Assembly: GCA_017462445.1 (NCBI GenBank)
Contig: JAFTRB010000204.1
Location: 1-11,570 of the forward strand
Length of the DNA stretch: 11,570 bases
Direction: 5' to 3'
Source of the DNA: Clostridia bacterium
GTDB lineage: Bacteria; Bacillota_A; Clostridia; Oscillospirales; CAG-272
Shown here: in pieces, positions 3,665-11,570 of the stretch
Numbering within the stretch: the stretch's first letter is position 1
Layout of the letters: each line of letters begins with the position of its first letter
The notes under the pieces: generated by a model
What the model was told of the DNA's origin: nothing
Database searches by the model: none
Seen by the model: only the letters and a program-made list of their open reading frames with translations
Position numbers and translations under genes: made by a program

Positions 3665-5041
3665 TTATTTGCTTAGAAAATCCTCAACATAGGCTATCTG
3701 CTCATTTACGCTCTCATAACCCGTCGAGCCACGGGATATCCTCTTTGCTATACAGCTCTCAAGGGATATCTCGGTATAGAGGTCACTGTCAAATATCTCG
3801 CTGTGCGCCTTGTAGTCTTCAAGGGGCAATTCGTCAAGCGCCACGCCCTTCGATATACACTCGGCAACAATGCTTCCGACGATCTTGTAGGCTGTGCGGA
3901 AGGGCAGGCCCTTCTTTACCATATAGTCGGCAAGATCTGTCGCATTGATGTAGCCGCCGGTTGCCGCCTTGTACATATTCTTCTTGTTCGGCTTCATCGT
4001 TGCCACCATCGGAATAAAGATTTCAAGGCACTTAAGCACGGTATCCACCGCATCAAAAATGGCCTCCTTATCCTCCTGCATATCCTTGTTGTACGCCAGA
4101 GGCAGTCCCTTGAGTACGGTCAGCGTTGCCATCAGGTCGCCGTATACCCTACCCGTCTTACCGCGGACAAGCTCCGCCATATCCGGATTCTTTTTCTGTG
4201 GCATGATCGAGGAGCCTGTGGTGTAGGCATCGTCAAGCTCCACGAACTTGAACTCCCAGCTCGACCAGAGAATGATCTCCTCGCTGAACCTGGACAGGTG
4301 CATCATTATAAGGGCAAAGGCGCTTTCAAGCTCCACGCAATAATCCCTGTCAGACACTCCGTCAATCGAGTTCATCGTAATTCCGTCAAAGCCAAGAGCC
4401 TCGGCTACCATATCCCTGTCGGTGTCATAGGTAGTCCCTGCCAGGGCGCAGGAGCCAAGCGGAGAATAGTTCATTCTCTTCAGTGCGTCCTCCATTCTCC
4501 CTTTGTCACGCATCAGCATCATACAATAGGCAAGCAGATGCTGGGCAAAGGTTATCGGCTGTGCCCTTTGCAGATGGGTGTAGCCCGGCATAATGGCATC
4601 GGTGTTAGCCTTGGCAACCTCCTTCACCGCCTCAATTAGCGCGTAGAGCTGCTTTATCACCTTCTCGCCCGCATCACGCATATAAAGCCTTAGATCCAGG
4701 GCAACCTGGTCGTTTCTCGATCTTGCGGTATGAAGCCTTTTTCCCGCATCTCCAATTCTTTTTGTAAGCTCCGCCTCGACAAACATATGTATGTCCTCGG
4801 CATTCATATCAAATGCGAGCGCTCCGCTGTCGAGATCCTCCAGTATTCCCGTCAGCCCCTCTATAATAGAGTCATATTCGCCCGCCGTGAGAATACCCTT
4901 TGTCTTAAGCATAAGAGCGTGCTTCATCGAGCCCTCAATATCAAAGCGGTACATTCTCGAATCAAAATGAATAGAGGAGTTGAAATCGTCGGCAGCCTTG
5001 TCTGTCTGTCCTGCGGTTCTTCCCGCCCACATCTTTTCCAT
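3665..5041 (-). CDS. argH: Argininosuccinate lyase
   Basis: Cleaves argininosuccinate to arginine and fumarate, the last step of arginine biosynthesis, as a cytoplasmic homotetramer. At 458 residues it has the usual family length. The fumarase/aspartase-superfamily signature GSSIMPQKKNPD is at 276-287, with the catalytic-serine loop at S277/S278. Other conserved blocks are SRNDQV (108-113) and GYTHLQRAQP (153-162), with the base-region histidine H156. The N terminus (MWAGRT...) and the 'STGYESVNEQI' region near the C terminus fit ArgH. ATG follows a CGGAG-type ribosome binding site. It lies 92 bp downstream of argG in the same direction and shares its ARG-box promoter. A strong terminator follows. 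No missing residue or break was seen. Confidence 0.97.
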   Translation of the reverse strand: MEKMWAGRTAGQTDKAADDFNSSIHFDSRMYRFDIEGSMKHALMLKTKGILTAGEYDSIIEGLTGILEDLDSGALAFDMNAEDIHMFVEAELTKRIGDAGKRLHTARSRNDQVALDLRLYMRDAGEKVIKQLYALIEAVKEVAKANTDAIMPGYTHLQRAQPITFAQHLLAYCMMLMRDKGRMEDALKRMNYSPLGSCALAGTTYDTDRDMVAEALGFDGITMNSIDGVSDRDYCVELESAFALIMMHLSRFSEEIILWSSWEFKFVELDDAYTTGSSIMPQKKNPDMAELVRGKTGRVYGDLMATLTVLKGLPLAYNKDMQEDKEAIFDAVDTVLKCLEIFIPMVATMKPNKKNMYKAATGGYINATDLADYMVKKGLPFRTAYKIVGSIVAECISKGVALDELPLEDYKAHSEIFDSDLYTEISLESCIAKRISRGSTGYESVNEQIAYVEDFLSK

Positions 5042-5072
5042 ATCTATCTCCGTTTGTAAACTATTATTTTCA

Positions 5073-5118
5073 AAATTCCACCCAACTCTCTACACGGGGG
5101 TAGGGTTGAGTGGAATTT
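5073..5118 (-). promoter_or_regulatory. Long hairpin between argG and argH
   Basis: A near-perfect inverted repeat fills half of the argG-argH gap. The lower stem is aaattccac (5073-5081) against gtggaattt (5110-5118). It continues after one mismatch with caac/gttg (5083-5086 with 5105-5108) and then a ctac/gtag pairing near the loop. In the leftward transcript it is followed only by TTTT and then AT-rich sequence, so it could be a weak terminator, a processing site or a 3' stability element that tunes argH relative to argG. Confidence 0.55.
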
Positions 5119-5133
5119 CACGCTGTGTGAATA

Positions 5134-6360
5134 TTACTTCTTGTTTCTTGCGTTAACCTGCGCCTGGACCTTGATGGGGAGGCCGAAGAGGTTAATGAAG
5201 CCTGCGGAATCTGCCTGGTTGTAGACATTATCCTCACCGAAGGTGGCAATCTCCTCGGAGTAAAGCGAGTAATCGCTCCATACACCAGCCTTAATGATAT
5301 TACCCTTATACAGCTTCAGCTTTACCTTACCCGTCACATTCTCCTGTGTCTTGTCGACAAAGGCGGAGAGAGCCTCACGCAGGGGAGTAAACCACTGACC
5401 GTTGTAAACCAGCTCGGCAAAGGTGATGGAAAGCTCCTGCTTCTTATGGGCGGTCATCTTATCAAGGCAGATGGTCTCAAGATAGCTGTGAGCCGCATAG
5501 AGAATGATTCCTCCGGGAGTCTCGTAAACGCCGCGGCACTTCATACCGACAAGGCGGTTCTCCACGATGTCGAGCAGACCGATACCGTTTGCGCCGCCGA
5601 GCTTGTTAAGCTCAAGAATGATGTCCTTTGCGCTCATTGCTACCCCGTTGAGAGCGGTGGGAACGCCCTGTACAAAGTCAAGGGTGATGTAGGTGGGCTC
5701 ATCGGGTGCCTGCAGGGGAGATACGCCCATCTCGAGGAAGCCGGGCTTGTCATAGAGGGGCTCGTTTCCTGCATCCTCAAGGTCGAGGCCTTCGTGGGAG
5801 AGGTGCCAGAGGTTCTTATCCTTGGAATAGTTTGTCTCGCGGTTTATCTTAAGCGGAACGCCGTGCGCCTCCGCATAGTCGATCTCCTCCTCGCGGGACT
5901 TGATCGTCCACTCACGCCAGGGCGCGATTATGGGCATATCGGGGGCGAAGGCCTTGATGGTAAGCTCGAAGCGAACCTGGTCGTTACCCTTACCCGTACA
6001 GCCGTGACAGATTGCATCTGCGCCCTCGGCAAGAGCGATCTCGGCAATTCTCTTTGCAATAACAGGACGGGCGAAGGATGTGCCAAGCATATACTCCTCG
6101 TAGAGCGCGCCTGCCTTAACGGTGGGAATTACATACTCGTCAACGAACTCGTCCGTGAGATCCTCGATGTAGCACTTGGACGCGCCGGTCGCAATAGCCT
6201 TTGCCTCCAGGCCCTCCAGCTCGTCAGCCTGTCCGACATTTCCCGAAACCGCGATAACCTCGCAGTTGTTGTAGTTCTCCTTGAGCCAAGGAATAATGAT
6301 AGAGGTATCAAGTCCTCCGGAATAGGCGAGGACAACCTTTTTGATCTGTGACTTATCCAT
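5134..6360 (-). CDS. argG: Argininosuccinate synthase
   Basis: Joins citrulline and aspartate to argininosuccinate, using ATP and releasing AMP and pyrophosphate, in the cytoplasm. The 408 residues match the family's usual size. The ATP-pyrophosphatase P-loop SGGLDTS is at 14-20. The citrulline/aspartate-binding block [12 protein letters not shown] is at 121-132, followed by the PIIAPWREW segment (143-151). ATG is preceded by AAAGGAGA at good spacing. It is the first gene of argG-argH, with a mapped -35/-10 pair 60-90 bases upstream overlapped by an ARG box, so repression by an ArgR/AhrC regulator in high arginine is expected. The 5' untranslated region carries a short GC-rich hairpin. Nothing unusual was seen in the coding sequence. 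Confidence 0.97.
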
Positions 6361-6759: not shown

Positions 6760-7650
6760 ATGAACAACGAAATTGTAAAAAGCAATGTCCCGAGGCTGAC
6801 GATACACGCAAAAAAGGGAACGCACGCAAACAATCCGGGTAAATACTCTCCCCTGCACTACCACGATGAGTTAGAGCTGCTGATAGTATACGGCGGCGAG
6901 TTTGTCTGCGCGGTCGATGGGGTGGAATATATTGCCCATGACGGAGATGTGATCTTTGTCAATTCACGAATTCCCCACCACACCTACGGAACGACCGCCA
7001 CGGTAACAGGACTGCTTCAGTTCCGTGAGACCGACTTCCTTGATAGCGAGATGGTAAAGATCATCCGCTATTCTGCCCGCTTCCAGAGTCGCTCGGAGGC
7101 GCCCGCAACCGTTCTCCATCTACCCGAGCTGTTCGAGGAGGTGGACAGAGTTCTCGAGGAGGCAAAAAGCCGAAATACGGCATACGACTTCTACATTCGC
7201 TCGGGCATCTTCCGCATTCTTGGCATTCTGTACAGAAGCGGACTGCTCACCAACGCCGAGCAAATGTACAATTCCAAGGAGATCCAGCACATAGCCGATG
7301 CCCTATCCTACATCAACGAGCATTTTCAGGAGAATATCAGCCTTGACGATGTAAGCCACAAGCTTGGCTTTGATCCCAGCTACTTCTGCCGTATCTTCAA
7401 GGCGGCAACCGGCGCAACCTTCACCGAGTACCTTAACTTTGTACGCGTCTGTAAGGCGGAGAGCCTGCTGGCAAAGACCGCCGACAGCATTTTGGAAATT
7501 TCGGAGGCGGTGGGCTTCTCCTCTGCCTCATACTTCAACCGCATCTTCAAGCGCTACAAGGGCTGCTCGCCGAGGCACTACCGGACCGCGAAATACATAG
7601 CCATTTCGAAGGGCGAAAAAGAAAGCATTATGGAGGATAAGAAGGAATGA
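6760..7650 (+). CDS. AraC-family transcriptional regulator with N-terminal cupin
   Basis: A 296-residue DNA-binding regulator. Residues ~28-80 form a cupin-type sensor strand set with a metal/ligand-like histidine cluster (HYHDELEL, 33-40) and the turn 'HDGDVIFVNSRIPHH' (60-74). The C-terminal ~100 residues are the two-helix-turn-helix AraC/XylS domain: helix set one at ~194-218 (SLDDVSHKLGF...YFCRIFK) and set two at ~243-275 (ILEISEAVGFSSASYFNRIFKRYKGCSPRHYR). Such proteins commonly sense sugars or their derivatives and activate nearby catabolic genes, but the ligand cannot be read from the sequence. ATG follows TAGGAG. Its last four bases (ATGA) are also the start of the hydrolase gene, so the two are translationally coupled and probably functionally linked. 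Confidence 0.93.
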   Translation: MNNEIVKSNVPRLTIHAKKGTHANNPGKYSPLHYHDELELLIVYGGEFVCAVDGVEYIAHDGDVIFVNSRIPHHTYGTTATVTGLLQFRETDFLDSEMVKIIRYSARFQSRSEAPATVLHLPELFEEVDRVLEEAKSRNTAYDFYIRSGIFRILGILYRSGLLTNAEQMYNSKEIQHIADALSYINEHFQENISLDDVSHKLGFDPSYFCRIFKAATGATFTEYLNFVRVCKAESLLAKTADSILEISEAVGFSSASYFNRIFKRYKGCSPRHYRTAKYIAISKGEKESIMEDKKE

Positions 7651-8375
7651 GCATTTTCACCGAATGGAACGGATATAAAAGGGAGGATTTTCTCTTCGAG
7701 GGGCGGAATGCCATCCTGGTCTACCCGAAAGAGCCCGATAAGGAGGGGCGCTGGCTCTTTAAGACAGAATACTTCGGCGCCTTCCCCGAGCTTGAAATTA
7801 TGATGCTTGAGCGCGGCTTTCATATAGCCTATCTCAAGAACAAATCAAGATGGGTAAAGGAGGACGATATCGAGGTCAAGGACCGCTTTATCGAGTATCT
7901 TTCAAGAGAGCGCGGACTAAATCCAAGATGCGCCACCGTAGGCATGAGCTGCGGCGGAATGCACGCGGTTTACCTCGCCTCGAAATATCCGGGGAGAGTT
8001 GCGGTTTGCTACATCGATGCTCCCGTATTAAACCTTCTCTCCTGCCCTATGGCGCTCGGGGAGGCCACCGATGACAGTATGATTGCCGAGTTTGAAGGCG
8101 CAACCGGCTTTACCCTCTCCACCCTGATAAGCTACCGCCATCACCCGATAGACGAAGCCCCAAAAATGCTTGCGGCAAGAGTTCCTCTTTTCATAAGCGG
8201 AGGAGATAGCGACAGTGTTGTTCCCTATTCGGAAAACGGCGCGCTCCTGTCAGAAATGTACAGGAAAAGCGATGTCCCCTTCCGCGAGGTGATCGTCGAG
8301 GGAAGAGGTCATCATCCTCACACTATTCAGGATATGAATTTAATTGTTGAATTTATAGAAAAATATTATAATTGA
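7647..8375 (+). CDS. Alpha/beta-hydrolase (serine esterase/peptidase-like)
   Basis: A 242-residue cytoplasmic protein with an alpha/beta-hydrolase fold and no signal peptide. The nucleophile elbow is GMSCGG (99-104) with S101. The acid is probably D189 in GGDSDSVVP (185-193), with D187 as the alternative, and the base is H222 in EGRGHHPH. The spacing fits a complete catalytic triad. The substrate is unknown; prolyl-oligopeptidase-like and sugar-ester hydrolases share this layout. The ATG lies in the ATGA overlap with the regulator, with GGAGG ten bases upstream. Co-expression with an AraC/cupin regulator suggests an intracellular ester or peptide released during uptake of a carbon source, but this is inference. 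A strong terminator follows about 50 bases downstream. Confidence 0.85.
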   Translation: MSIFTEWNGYKREDFLFEGRNAILVYPKEPDKEGRWLFKTEYFGAFPELEIMMLERGFHIAYLKNKSRWVKEDDIEVKDRFIEYLSRERGLNPRCATVGMSCGGMHAVYLASKYPGRVAVCYIDAPVLNLLSCPMALGEATDDSMIAEFEGATGFTLSTLISYRHHPIDEAPKMLAARVPLFISGGDSDSVVPYSENGALLSEMYRKSDVPFREVIVEGRGHHPHTIQDMNLIVEFIEKYYN

Positions 8376-8465: not shown

Positions 8466-8834
8466 TTAAAGCAGATGGACGGGCATTTGTCCGCCAAGGT
8501 TTACATATCCCTCGCCCTCTCTGGTCGCCACCGTCTCGGCAACATCGACAGGTGTGGGAATATCATTATTTGACACGGGGGTGGGTGTCTCTTTCTTTTT
8601 GGTTCTTTTTTCCGGTGTCCTCTTCGGCTCCGCCTTCGTCTTTCTCTTTGGCTCTGCCTTTTTCTTTGGCGCCTTCTTCGGCTCCTCCGCCTTTGGTGTG
8701 TCGTCAACTACAACCACGGGCACAGACAGCGGCTCTTCGACAATTGTGCTGTTCTCCATATCGGGTGCGGAGGAGGTTACCTGGCTGTAACCATTGTTCC
8801 TTACCCTCTTTATCGAATCCTTACCTAACGGCAT
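8466..8834 (-). CDS. Small Lys/Pro/Glu-rich disordered protein, candidate ParA partner
   Basis: No known family recognised. From ATG at 8832-8834 (AAGGAGA ten bases upstream) it is 122 residues and overlaps the ParA stop by 14 bases; a TTG at 8855 is a poorer start. It has three parts. A short N-terminal segment (1-30, MPLGKDSIKRVRNNGYSQV...) carries basic residues. A charged low-complexity middle (48-82) has 17 Lys/Arg in 35 residues and a repeated AEPKR (60-64 and 68-72). Pro/Thr-rich sequence then leads to a C-terminal tail (EGEGYVNLGGQMPVHLL) that looks more ordered. There is no signal peptide or membrane segment. Translational overlap with a ParA ATPase downstream of two microcompartment genes suggests it links ParA to its cargo, as McdB does for McdA in carboxysomes. 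It could instead be a nucleoid-binding or shell-associated linker. The function is inference. Confidence 0.72.
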   Translation of the reverse strand: MPLGKDSIKRVRNNGYSQVTSSAPDMENSTIVEEPLSVPVVVVDDTPKAEEPKKAPKKKAEPKRKTKAEPKRTPEKRTKKKETPTPVSNNDIPTPVDVAETVATREGEGYVNLGGQMPVHLL

Positions 8835-9612
8835 ACTGCATAATCTCCTTTGCAAGCTTTACATACTCCAGCGCCGAGCGGCTGTATTTTTTATAGGCAA
8901 CCACGGGCTGGCTATTATCCTGCGCCCACTCAATGGCGGCATCAATGCGGATATATGTCTCAAATAGTCTGGCAATCTCTCCGTCCTTAAGCGTCTGTAT
9001 CGTCTGCTTGAAGTAGTTCTTTCTCTCATCAGCCTTGGTGATAGCAATGCCAAGAACCTCAAGCTTCGGGCTGACCGAGCGGACCTGCCCGATGAAGTCA
9101 AACATATTCGCAAGCCCGAACAGTCCCCAGGGGCTAGCCTCGACGGGAATAACCACATAGTCGGAGGCGCACATTATATTCATAACCCAACCGCCGAGGG
9201 TGGGAGGGGAATCTATCAGAATATAATCGTAATAGCCTCTTGCAAGAATGGGAGAGAGGCACTTCTTCAATATCAGCTCTCGCTGCCACTTGGTGAAGAG
9301 GTCAAACTCAATACCGCTCATCAGGCTTGTCGAGGGGATAATATCCAACCCCTCATAGGCTGTGGGAACGACATAATCGGAAAGGTCCTTTTCACCCTTT
9401 ATTGCGGTGTATATATTCTTCTCGCCTGTTGCGTGCGCCATCGCCCCCTCCTCGTCGAAGAAGGAGAGCGTCAGGTTCATCTGCATATCGCCGTCAATCA
9501 GCAGCACCCTCTTGCCCATACGGGCCATAGCACAGCCAATATTTGACACGGTGGTAGTCTTTCCGCTTCCGCCCTTGTTGTTGGCGAAGGCAATTACAAT
9601 AGTTCTGCTCAT
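8821..9612 (-). CDS. ParA/MinD-family ATPase in a microcompartment operon
   Basis: A 263-residue P-loop ATPase of the ParA/Soj type. It has the deviant Walker A KGGSGKTT (13-20) with signature lysine K13, the A' motif LLIDGDMQ (37-44), the Walker B ILIDSPP (131-137), and the following DYVVIPVEASPWGLFGL segment typical of the family. ParA ATPases dimerise on ATP, bind the nucleoid non-specifically and move or space cargo when a partner triggers hydrolysis. ATG (9610-9612) overlaps the stop of the EutP-like gene in TGATG; a GTG one codon earlier is a less likely start. No parB, parS, replication or chromosome-partition gene is nearby. The neighbours are a shell protein and a EutP GTPase, so the cargo is probably a microcompartment. 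The small basic gene downstream is the likely partner. Confidence 0.9.
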   Translation of the reverse strand: MSRTIVIAFANNKGGSGKTTTVSNIGCAMARMGKRVLLIDGDMQMNLTLSFFDEEGAMAHATGEKNIYTAIKGEKDLSDYVVPTAYEGLDIIPSTSLMSGIEFDLFTKWQRELILKKCLSPILARGYYDYILIDSPPTLGGWVMNIMCASDYVVIPVEASPWGLFGLANMFDFIGQVRSVSPKLEVLGIAITKADERKNYFKQTIQTLKDGEIARLFETYIRIDAAIEWAQDNSQPVVAYKKYSRSALEYVKLAKEIMQYAVR

Positions 9613-10067
9613 CACTTGTTCTCGCTTTCTTTCTCTTTGGGGTCCTCCTCAAGATACTCGAGGATCGCCTGCAGTCCCTCGCCTGTCACGGCGCTGACCG
9701 GGAAGATCTTCTTACAGCCTGCAAGGCGCAACCATCTCTCCACCCGCTCAACATTCGCATCAGGCTTGTCGATTCCCGATATTATGCCAATAACCTCGCG
9801 ATTGACAAGGCTGGTAATACAGGGAGAGAAAATGGAATATGGCTCGTTTGCGCTCAGCACAAGGCCGACCACGTCCGCCTCATAGGAATAGAGAGCCAAA
9901 GCGCCGCTGGTCTGACGAAGCTCGGTATACTCGCCCGGGGTGTCTATCACGGTGTCAAGATAGTTGATATACTGGGTCTTAAAATATTTGATTTCCTCGC
10001 CTCGCAGAGCCTGTGTCAGGGTGGTTTTGCCTGCGGCAACTCTGCCAATCAAGATAATCTTACGCAT
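9612..10067 (-). CDS. EutP/PduV-family microcompartment GTPase
   Basis: A 151-residue single-domain P-loop protein of the EutP/PduV family found in BMC operons. It has the P-loop GRVAAGKTT (8-16), the family block TLTQALRGEEIKYFKTQYI (16-34), the G3 motif DTPGE (42-46), LALYSYEADVVGLVLSANEP (57-76), and a G5-like SAVTGEG (125-131). The G4 position reads SGID (97-100) instead of [NT]KxD. The guanine-contacting aspartate is kept but the lysine is Gly, so nucleotide preference may be altered. PduV has been linked to microcompartment association and movement in earlier work; the exact role of this family is unsettled. It lies 14 bases after the shell gene and overlaps the ParA start, so the three are one transcription unit. 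The C-terminal tail is short and charged (EEDPKEKESENK). Confidence 0.93.
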   Translation of the reverse strand: MRKIILIGRVAAGKTTLTQALRGEEIKYFKTQYINYLDTVIDTPGEYTELRQTSGALALYSYEADVVGLVLSANEPYSIFSPCITSLVNREVIGIISGIDKPDANVERVERWLRLAGCKKIFPVSAVTGEGLQAILEYLEEDPKEKESENK

Positions 10068-10081
10068 TTCGTCACCAAAAA

Positions 10082-10441
10082 TCAGGTCCTTGTGATCTCA
10101 CAGCAGGTATAGCCCAGCTTGTTAATGACATAGGAGCGAATGGCGGTGAAGGCGGACTCGACAGCGGACACGCTGCCGGAGATGATGAGAGTACCGGTAA
10201 ATCTATCAACAAAGCCAACCTCCGCTCCCGAGGACTTAAGCGCGATATCCGCCGCAATAACCGCGCTCTCCGCGGGGCTGACGGTGAGAACGCCTATCGC
10301 CGAGCGTGTGTAGTCGGTTCTGGGGTCAAGTCCAAGCTTGACATAAAGAATATCGTCGGGGTTTGCAATAATGTGACAGAGAGTTACCTGCTTACCGGGT
10401 ACAAGCTCCTGCACTATTCTCATATTTTCTTTAAGCTCCAT
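10082..10441 (-). CDS. BMC shell protein, EutS/PduU type
   Basis: A 119-residue circularly permuted BMC-domain protein, the usual length for EutS/PduU. The N-terminal 'IVQELVPGKQVTLCHIIANP' region is the family hallmark. In known structures the corresponding segment forms a small beta-barrel on one face of the hexamer. The BMC fold follows, with IGVLTVSPAESAVIAADIALKS and the 'VGFVDRFTGTLIISGSVSAVESA' helix/strand region. It would make hexameric tiles in the protein shell of a metabolic microcompartment. ATG follows GGAGGA at good spacing. It lies between the glycyl-radical activase (50 bp upstream) and the EutP-like gene (14 bp downstream). Only one shell gene is in view, so the others must lie beyond the right edge or elsewhere in the genome. 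Confidence 0.95.
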   Translation of the reverse strand: MELKENMRIVQELVPGKQVTLCHIIANPDDILYVKLGLDPRTDYTRSAIGVLTVSPAESAVIAADIALKSSGAEVGFVDRFTGTLIISGSVSAVESAFTAIRSYVINKLGYTCCEITRT

Positions 10442-11277: not shown

Positions 11278-11313
11278 AGTGGTCCTTTCTGTGGAGTTTA
11301 GTGTTCAGTGGTA

Positions 11314-11391
11314 CTCTTTATCGGTGCAAGCCCTCGGGGAGGTCTTGGTGCTAACGCACTGTGTTTGTCTTGCGACAAACCACCGAAAGAG
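11314..11391 (-). other. Four-way-junction (cloverleaf-like) structured element upstream of the activase
   Basis: A 78-base compact secondary structure. The closing stem is 11314-11326 against 11381-11391 (11 pairs with a two-base bulge). It encloses three hairpins almost without unpaired bases: 11327-11335/11339-11347 (eight of nine pairs), 11348-11351/11356-11359 (four pairs) and 11363-11369/11374-11380 (seven pairs). On the minus strand the last loop is GCAA, a GNRA tetraloop, which favours an RNA read towards the activase. It does not match a tRNA, and I do not recognise a known riboswitch. It may be a leader or intercistronic RNA structure, or a dispersed repeat. Confidence 0.5.
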
Positions 11392-11442
11392 CAATCTGCG
11401 GCAATCATCCTTGTGAGCAAGCTCCCAGATATGATTGCTCTT
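11387..11442 (-). other. Competing 10-bp hairpin next to the cloverleaf element
   Basis: aagagcaatc (11387-11396) pairs perfectly with gattgctctt (11433-11442), and a small gagc-aa-gctc hairpin lies inside. The first arm reuses bases 11387-11391 of the cloverleaf's closing stem, so the two folds exclude each other. A further alternative pairs 11401-11408 with 11431-11438 (eight perfect pairs). This looks like a bistable RNA region, though no T-run is present to make a terminator. Confidence 0.4.
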
Positions 11443-11570
11443 GATTATCAGTGGTTAGTGGCTACGCACGCCATAGCTAATAATGTTAAAGAGCTTCAGT
11501 GTGCGTGCTAGCATTTTTCGGCGATTTGGGACCCGACCCAAATCGATTTGCAAGCAAATTACCCTCAAAA
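11443..11570. other. Right-edge intergenic sequence with further inverted repeats
   Basis: No gene seen. It holds a perfect nine-pair hairpin, cgatttggg/cccaaatcg (11522-11530 with 11537-11545, loop acccga), followed at once by atttgc-aa-gcaaat (11546-11559). An imperfect long-range pairing between gctacgcac (near 11461) and gtgcgt...agc (near 11500) is also possible. No T-run makes these terminators, and no clear promoter for the activase was found here. The activase may therefore be transcribed with a gene beyond the right edge. Confidence 0.45.

Follow-up and report, generated by a model that had tools for sequence, protein, structure and literature searches.

An 11,570-nucleotide stretch of genome from a member of the Clostridia (contig JAFTRB010000204.1 of assembly GCA_017462445.1), referred to below as the window, carries on its minus strand a ParA-type ATPase gene and a small gene directly behind two genes for bacterial microcompartment (BMC) components. 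The order of transcription is activase of a glycyl-radical enzyme, EutS-like shell protein, EutP-like GTPase, ParA, small protein, and finally a terminator-like hairpin (Table 1). For simplicity the small Lys/Pro-rich protein is referred to as the adaptor, the role proposed for it below, and the two last genes together as the cassette. An initial annotation made from the letters of the window had described the succession from shell protein to small protein as having a gap of 14 bases and overlaps of 1 and 14 bases, and these spacings were borne out. It had also placed a terminator at the end of the set. The hairpin found there has 13 pairs, the longest stem of the five terminator-like sites in the 4 kb scanned (the others have 5-6 pairs; 3.3 sites were expected). 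Its observation that no parB lies alongside agrees with Pfam profiling, in which none of ten window proteins was a ParB.

Against the NCBIfam EutS model (NF012012) the EutS-like protein reached 105 bits, under the cut-off of 123, and EutP reached 147 bits against TIGR02528, over the cut-off of 138. The window lacks the glycyl-radical enzyme itself; the 293 bases upstream of the activase (11278-11570) do not contain it. In relatives the enzyme was seen upstream of the activase, at a distance of about 30 to 340 bases in the six that were read, and the window therefore possibly just ends inside the gap between enzyme and activase. The best match among solved structures for the enzyme at one related locus (L004) was diol dehydratase 5i2a (1180 bits). 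Of a glycyl-radical-enzyme microcompartment (GRM) operon, the window holds the activase and EutS, whereas the enzyme is found only in relatives.

Table 1. Features of the cassette and the preceding operon genes in the window
Feature	Position	Strand	Evidence or remark
Radical-SAM glycyl-radical-enzyme activase, 261 aa	10492..11277	-	TIGR02494, 296 bits (cut-off of 174 exceeded); first gene of the operon within the window
EutS/PduU-type BMC shell protein, 119 aa	10082..10441	-	PF00936, 46.4 bits, 3.8e-12
EutP/PduV-type small GTPase, 151 aa	9612..10067	-	PF10662, 174 bits, 1.5e-51
ParA-type ATPase, 263 aa	8821..9612 from ATG, or to 9615 from GTG	-	AAA_31 (PF13614), 178 bits, 2.4e-52
Small Lys/Pro-rich adaptor-like protein, 122 aa	8466..8834	-	Family of 64 distinct ParA-adjoining proteins
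Conserved N-terminal segment of the small protein (MPLGKDSIKRV...APDMENS), proposed ParA-binding end	8745..8834	-	Family alignment
Conserved C-terminal motif of the small protein (GGQMPVHLL), proposed cargo/shell-binding end	8469..8495	-	Family alignment
Shine-Dalgarno-like AGGAGA within the 3' end of parA, 9 nt ahead of the ATG of the small gene	8844..8849	-	
Terminator-like hairpin 3' of the small gene, 13-pair stem, 8-base loop	8428..8461	-	

A scan of contigs with an alignment of the small protein gave 79 pattern matches, 42 of which were confirmed as loci, all in metagenome-assembled genomes (MAGs) titled Clostridia, Clostridiales, or Oscillospiraceae. ParA lay directly ahead of the small gene at every one of the 42 loci, and the gene order was constant as far as the contigs reached. 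EutP was present at 41, EutS at 40, and the activase at 36 loci. The EutP and EutS misses are accounted for by contig ends, and four of the six loci lacking the activase are on contigs cut there; L011 and L036 extend about 2.9 and 1.2 kb ahead of EutS, yet have no activase.

Among 196 genomes of one family (that of genome G004), a model of the adaptor matched 14 and the BMC shell family matched 50, and all 14 fell among the 50. Nine of the 14 adaptor matches were weak (E values of 3e-8 to 1e-3), and all nine of these genomes carry BMC genes. Low-complexity noise was rejected as the source of the weak matches because the adaptor lies behind ParA and has both conserved motifs in all nine. The model is insensitive: it detected 10 of 22 adaptors and missed the other 12, which were recognized from their position. 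The lack of model matches in BMC-free genomes is therefore weak evidence. Stretches around the BMC genes were read for 45 of the 50 genomes (G004, G005, G006, and G008 were covered separately, and G197, with one weak match, was omitted). Three of these stretches (G115, G120, and G183) were placed using the adaptor match, because their BMC matches fell on different contigs or where a contig ended. EutS and EutP were found in 22 of the 45 stretches, a second BMC type was found in 21, and 2 were cut ahead of the site. In all 22 EutP-bearing stretches ParA came after EutP and was followed by a small open reading frame (ORF) of 63-142 aa that started exactly 14 nt inside parA. None of the 21 second-type stretches, some of which were short (4.5 to 6.4 kb in L109, L121, and L131), contained EutS, EutP, or ParA. 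A whole-genome search (E up to 1e-30) found the BMC-type ParA in none of those 21 genomes; 20 had only ParA matches of 32-38% identity and one had no match.

The initial annotation had tied the pair to microcompartment genes and had asked whether the small ORF is conserved next to BMC-linked ParA genes; the tie and the ORF were both kept at 42 of 42 loci and at 22 of 22 EutP loci. Its description of the organelle as a glycyl-radical BMC held in part, in that the activase is in the window but the enzyme is outside it and the cassette follows EutS-EutP instead. At 7 of the 22 EutP loci no glycyl-radical enzyme was seen within the fetched stretch, which suggests that the cassette is tied to the EutS-EutP pair rather than to the enzyme.

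Two further arrangements were noted. At L095, L102, L110, L114, L122, L125, and L133, BMC-T is followed directly by EutS-EutP-ParA-adaptor, with no glycyl-radical enzyme in the stretch. One MAG (G018) has two ParA-adaptor cassettes on two contigs (L147 and L067/L030), each with BMC genes; these may be two operons or the product of a mixed bin.

Judged by its conservation, the small ORF is a real gene and not a chance reading frame. The first search returned 27 homologues, and a profile search returned 82, of which 71 were new. The N-terminal motif was present in all 71 and a slightly looser C-terminal motif in 70, counts that describe the family rather than test it because the profile itself selects for the motifs. 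Family statistics were taken from 64 distinct proteins at 65 loci, all adjoining ParA. M1, G4, and K5 are invariant in all 64 and position 10 is always R or K, giving the N-end signature M-x-[ILV]-G-K...[KR], which is followed by a variable basic linker. The APDMENS portion of the N-terminal segment is conserved in the close group only. Every one of the 64 proteins ends in [ML]-P-x-[YFWH]-L-[LM], and the residue at position -3 is Y or F in 47 of them, W in 6, and His in 11. Neither the length nor the sequence of the linker is fixed; in the close group its composition includes 25% K, 20% A, and 11% P. An AlphaFold2 (AF2) model of the small protein of the window had a mean predicted local distance difference test (pLDDT) score of 63 and a predicted template modeling (TM) score, pTM, of 0.13, with a single helix at residues 6-12; the protein is thus predicted to be disordered except for that helix. 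A ribosome-binding-site-like AGGAGA (56 loci) or AGGAGG (9 loci) stands at the same spacing, 9 nt ahead of the start, at all 65 loci, but it coincides with conserved ParA codons and so is supporting evidence only. Pfam matches of the small proteins to DUF6465 (E 0.07 for the window protein) and HC2 were under the cut-offs and were dismissed as reflecting composition only. With both ends conserved in 64 of 64 proteins, these results support a distinct, conserved, and defined partner family, as the initial annotation had suggested.

The ParA of the window has an intact deviant Walker A motif (NNKGGSGKT) with the signature lysine and is 68-83% identical to the 42 syntenic copies. A copy in this identity range was found in each of 24 related genomes searched (two in G018). 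The other full-length matches in those genomes were 30-36% identical; what remained were weak matches with E values no better than 1e-8, some of which showed higher identity across short segments. Where Soj of related genomes was matched over its full length, it was 30-38% identical. Of the 26 Soj loci examined, 25 had their own ParB adjoining, and on the L006 contig the Soj-ParB pair of the genome is separate from the BMC ParA. The AF2 model of ParA (pLDDT 89.3) had Soj as its best Foldseek match, with McdA at rank 18 (TM 0.83). In a sequence comparison with Protein Data Bank entries, ParA 8ray scored 115.4 bits, Soj 107.6, and the McdA of Cyanothece, which is of the beta type, 55.9; alpha-McdA was outside this comparison. 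The sequence of the BMC-linked ParA is thus closer to the solved ParA and Soj than to the solved McdA; it resembles McdA in its proposed role but was probably recruited separately.

The initial annotation had left room for the ParA to group with plasmid or chromosome-partition proteins. In a tree of 54 ParAs, hand-picked for spread from 106 extracted sequences, the BMC-type ParAs formed one clade (99/97) on the opposite side of a 100/99 branch from chromosomal Soj. The nearest outsiders were two ParAs from large plasmid records (L140 and L141), 39-40% identical. The L140 ParA is followed by a ParB with ParB_N and ParB helix-turn-helix domains, both over the cut-offs, and the L141 ParA by a protein annotated as ParB, in which ParB_N reached 23.8 bits, just under the cut-off. 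The plasmid rows, from 5 of 8 listed plasmid records, are long branches, so the sister relation to L140 and L141 is tentative. No plasmid record with at least 60% identity to ParA was present among the best 5000 matches. The only phage record above 60% identity was a 42-residue Walker A piece and was set aside.

A link between the adaptor and ParB was beyond the reach of the initial annotation and came from comparing genomes. A class-level search found, in genome G472, a ParA at 62% identity followed by a 207-aa protein that starts with MSIGKNSINRA, ends with NDEMPTFLL, and has a ParB_N domain between (PF02195, 6.2e-9, over the cut-off). Seven of the nine genomes in the family of G472 have a ParB_N-type partner, each behind a BMC-type ParA (55-62% identity) and each with the C-terminal motif; the other two, G293 and G608, have BMC and EutP genes and no such partner. 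The domain was present in three of three partners profiled (L146/L173, 6.2e-9; L175, 2.8e-12; L179, 1.2e-14) and in all eight database relatives of the sister-form partner. The L179 partner combines a Lys/Pro/Ala-rich linker with ParB_N. BMC genes were found in eight of the nine genomes, and the ParA/ParB_N pair lies outside the BMC operon as far as the 10-20 kb stretches reach.

One locus of this family stands apart. At L145 (13427-14344, in G293) a BMC-type ParA with 64% identity lies among genes that look, by eye, like housekeeping genes, with a hairpin directly after it. G293 carries its BMC and EutP genes elsewhere, and in the tree L145 was assigned to the ParB-like group by genome family only.

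The small gene overlaps parA by 14 nt at 38 of the 42 loci and at all 22 survey loci, and the overlap partly dictates G4-K5. It was therefore considered whether M1-G4-K5 is a mere by-product of the parA stop overlap. This was rejected because the motif is kept elsewhere. At the remaining 4 of the 42 loci the overlap is 26 nt, since the G4 codon GGA no longer yields the parA TAA, and G-K is still kept. Five of six ParB_N loci overlap parA by 10 nt (frames read by eye), which leaves K5 outside the overlap, and G-K is again kept; the sixth, L178, retains the 14-nt register.

The simplest reading of these sequences is a common origin for the window's adaptor and the ParB_N form, with loss of the domain either as the pair entered the BMC operon or afterwards. 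In the tree the ParB_N form may branch ahead of the adaptor forms or from within them, so ParB_N may instead have been gained. The sister form suggests a DNA-partition system turned organelle-positioning system. A fuller account, to which we give somewhat less than an even chance, would start from a plasmid-like ParA/ParB pair in which ParB_N was flanked by an N-end that binds ParA and a C-end that binds cargo, a state that the sister family would still preserve, away from its BMC operon. In the lineage of the window, loss of ParB_N would have left the two ends and the basic linker, and the pair would have moved behind EutP. BMC positioning would then have arisen by a route separate from McdAB.

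We consider it likely that, in these related gut bacteria, ParA and its partner form an McdAB-like cassette that positions a metabolic microcompartment of the diol-dehydratase type, with an adaptor related to ParB. ParA would bind ATP, dimerize, and coat the nucleoid. The basic N-terminal helix of the adaptor (K5, K9, and R10) would touch the ParA dimer and stimulate ATP hydrolysis and release, the Lys/Pro/Ala-rich linker would act as a flexible spacer, and the C-terminal [ML]Px[Y/H]LL would dock on the outer face of the shell, most likely where EutS and EutP lie or close to them. The shell-bound adaptor would then drag the organelle along a ParA gradient, so that organelles are spaced and shared between daughter cells. 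The genes, their order, the conserved ends, and the linkage to EutS-EutP are observed; contact with ParA, stimulation of its ATPase, docking on the shell, and the positioning itself are what we infer. PduU is the same type of shell protein as EutS, and PduV is of the EutP type. A two-hybrid test showed PduV binding to PduU, and PduV has been located on the outside of the Pdu shell (PMC4315436). With the cassette following the EutS-EutP pair, this makes EutS the likely docking neighborhood.

The proposed layout of the small protein, with a ParA contact at the N-end and a cargo contact at the C-end, would be that of alpha-McdB, in which the N-terminal 20 residues and K7 bind McdA (PMC12204374). 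The C-terminal Trp of McdB is required for carboxysome association, and McdB-like proteins of propanediol-utilization (PDU) and GRM loci carry a Y or F among their five C-terminal residues (PMC11321042). Biased, disordered McdB proteins have been linked to phase separation, and McdAB movement has been described as a diffusion ratchet (PMC8262871). The cassette shares with the alpha and beta McdAB systems its linkage to BMC genes and its makeup: a ParA-type ATPase and, behind it, a small disordered protein of biased composition whose N-terminus is basic and whose C-end is conserved. Unlike them, the family has Y, H, F, or W at position -3 before L-L, in contrast to the invariant C-terminal Trp of McdB, the ATPase of the window is not closest to solved McdA, and its partner has a ParB_N sister form. 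The ParA fold and signature lysine are shared with ParA-ParB/Spo0J partition systems, as is PF02195 in the sister-form partners, whereas the partner in the window has neither ParB_N nor a DNA-binding domain.

Several elements of this proposal have precedents. ParA has been described as an ancillary gene of BMC loci (PMC4207490), McdAB systems have been proposed for BMC operons, with McdAB-type positioning beyond carboxysomes named as an outstanding question (PMC8262871), and McdB-like proteins have been reported in the vicinity of PDU and GRM operons (PMC11321042). The idea in those papers (PMC11321042 and PMC8262871) is the same, 53 of the 64 proteins of the present family have an aromatic Y, F, or W at position -3, and the published PDU/GRM McdB-like proteins may include members of this family. 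What differs here is a bounded two-motif family surveyed gene by gene, a second BMC type that serves as an absence control, and the ParB_N sister form. No description of the small-protein family, its EutS-EutP tie, or the ParB_N sister form was found in the literature searched, which was mostly non-subscription.

Several observations weigh against organelle positioning by the cassette. The small protein of the window is one of the 11 among 64 with His at position -3 rather than Y, F, or W. The sister form is more loosely linked to the organelle: EutP was found in five of the seven genomes with a ParB_N-type pair, G612 has the pair and BMC genes with no EutP match, G607 has the pair with no BMC and no EutP match, and in G293 ParA stands alone, with no partner gene adjoining. 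Among 391 genomes of the class, EutP was found in 76 (E up to 1e-30; 46 over the curated cut-off), and the BMC-type ParA was found in only 3 (E up to 1e-50). At the 30 best-scoring EutP loci examined across the class, EutS lay beside EutP in every case and ParA in one (G004). Organelles of this type can therefore exist without ParA. Seven of the ParA-less EutP loci share the glycyl-radical core of enzyme, activase, EutS, and EutP. At nine ParA-less loci (six of those seven, L224, and two sister-family loci) the genes after EutP are alike and aldolase-like, with class II aldolase PF00596 confirmed in the two that were profiled. This aldolase has been named as a component of GRM5 operons (PMC8217296), in which the order of the glycyl-radical diol-dehydratase-like enzyme, the activase, EutS, and EutP is the same. 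At the nine loci the aldolase-like gene takes the place that parA has in the window. Because most EutP-bearing Clostridia lack ParA, the cassette is a lineage-specific addition to a GRM5-like core rather than a general need.

The cassette might also be a genuine ParA-partner system whose cargo is not the shell. It could position or recruit EutP, an enzyme assembly, or DNA, and sit in the operon for co-expression. The sister-family ParA/ParB_N pair would fit such a role, being away from the BMC operon and once in a genome without detectable BMC genes (G607), and ParB_N is a domain of a DNA-partition family. However, in the surveyed family the cassette comes directly after EutP at all 22 loci, and the BMC-type ParA is missing from all 21 genomes with the other BMC type; we regard a non-shell cargo as unlikely. 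Somewhat less probable again is a role for ParA and its partner mainly in the assembly, condensation, or number control of the organelle rather than in movement over the nucleoid. A pure scaffold would presumably have no use for a ParA with an intact deviant Walker A motif, even though the basic low-complexity linker resembles the McdB proteins linked to phase separation (PMC8262871).

It is highly improbable that these are ordinary plasmid or chromosome partition genes that lie beside a BMC operon by chance, with parB elsewhere. The gene order kept at 42 of 42 loci, a ParA clade (99/97) apart from Soj, Soj matches of 30-38% identity, and Soj loci with their own ParB in 25 of 26 cases all argue against chance. 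Plasmid-record ParAs that are each followed by a ParB are the nearest outsiders in the tree (L140 and L141), which would favor it, but at 39-40% identity; no plasmid record reached 60% among the best 5000 matches, and the one phage record that did is a 42-residue piece.

Positioning of a microcompartment by ParA and the adaptor, as the initial annotation had proposed, is therefore supported in part: the BMC linkage, the distinct partner family, and the non-Soj ParA favor it, and the cassette goes with EutS-EutP rather than with the glycyl-radical enzyme. Neither of the two conditions that the initial annotation had set for its refutation refuted it, with related genomes standing in for the window's own genome in the search for a ParB elsewhere. 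The cassette provides a compact test case for such positioning, with two genes and two short peptide ends. Natural controls are available in the second BMC type without the cassette and in other Clostridia that have the same core operon without it. The ParB_N sister form would connect organelle positioning to DNA partition.

The remainder of the window holds genes of other kinds. Downstream of the cassette, on the minus strand at 3665-6360, are an argininosuccinate lyase gene (Pfam) and an argG-like gene (named by eye), and relatives of both lie near the cassette of the divergent locus L042 (13590-16272). An AraC-type regulator gene overlaps an alpha/beta hydrolase gene on the plus strand at 6760-8375; the two converge on the cassette terminator and may be unrelated to the BMC. 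Two adjacent, similar genes on the minus strand (19-1458 and 1561-2874) encode a protein-kinase-like domain with a C-terminal zinc-ribbon-like part, the second falling under the Pfam kinase cut-off.

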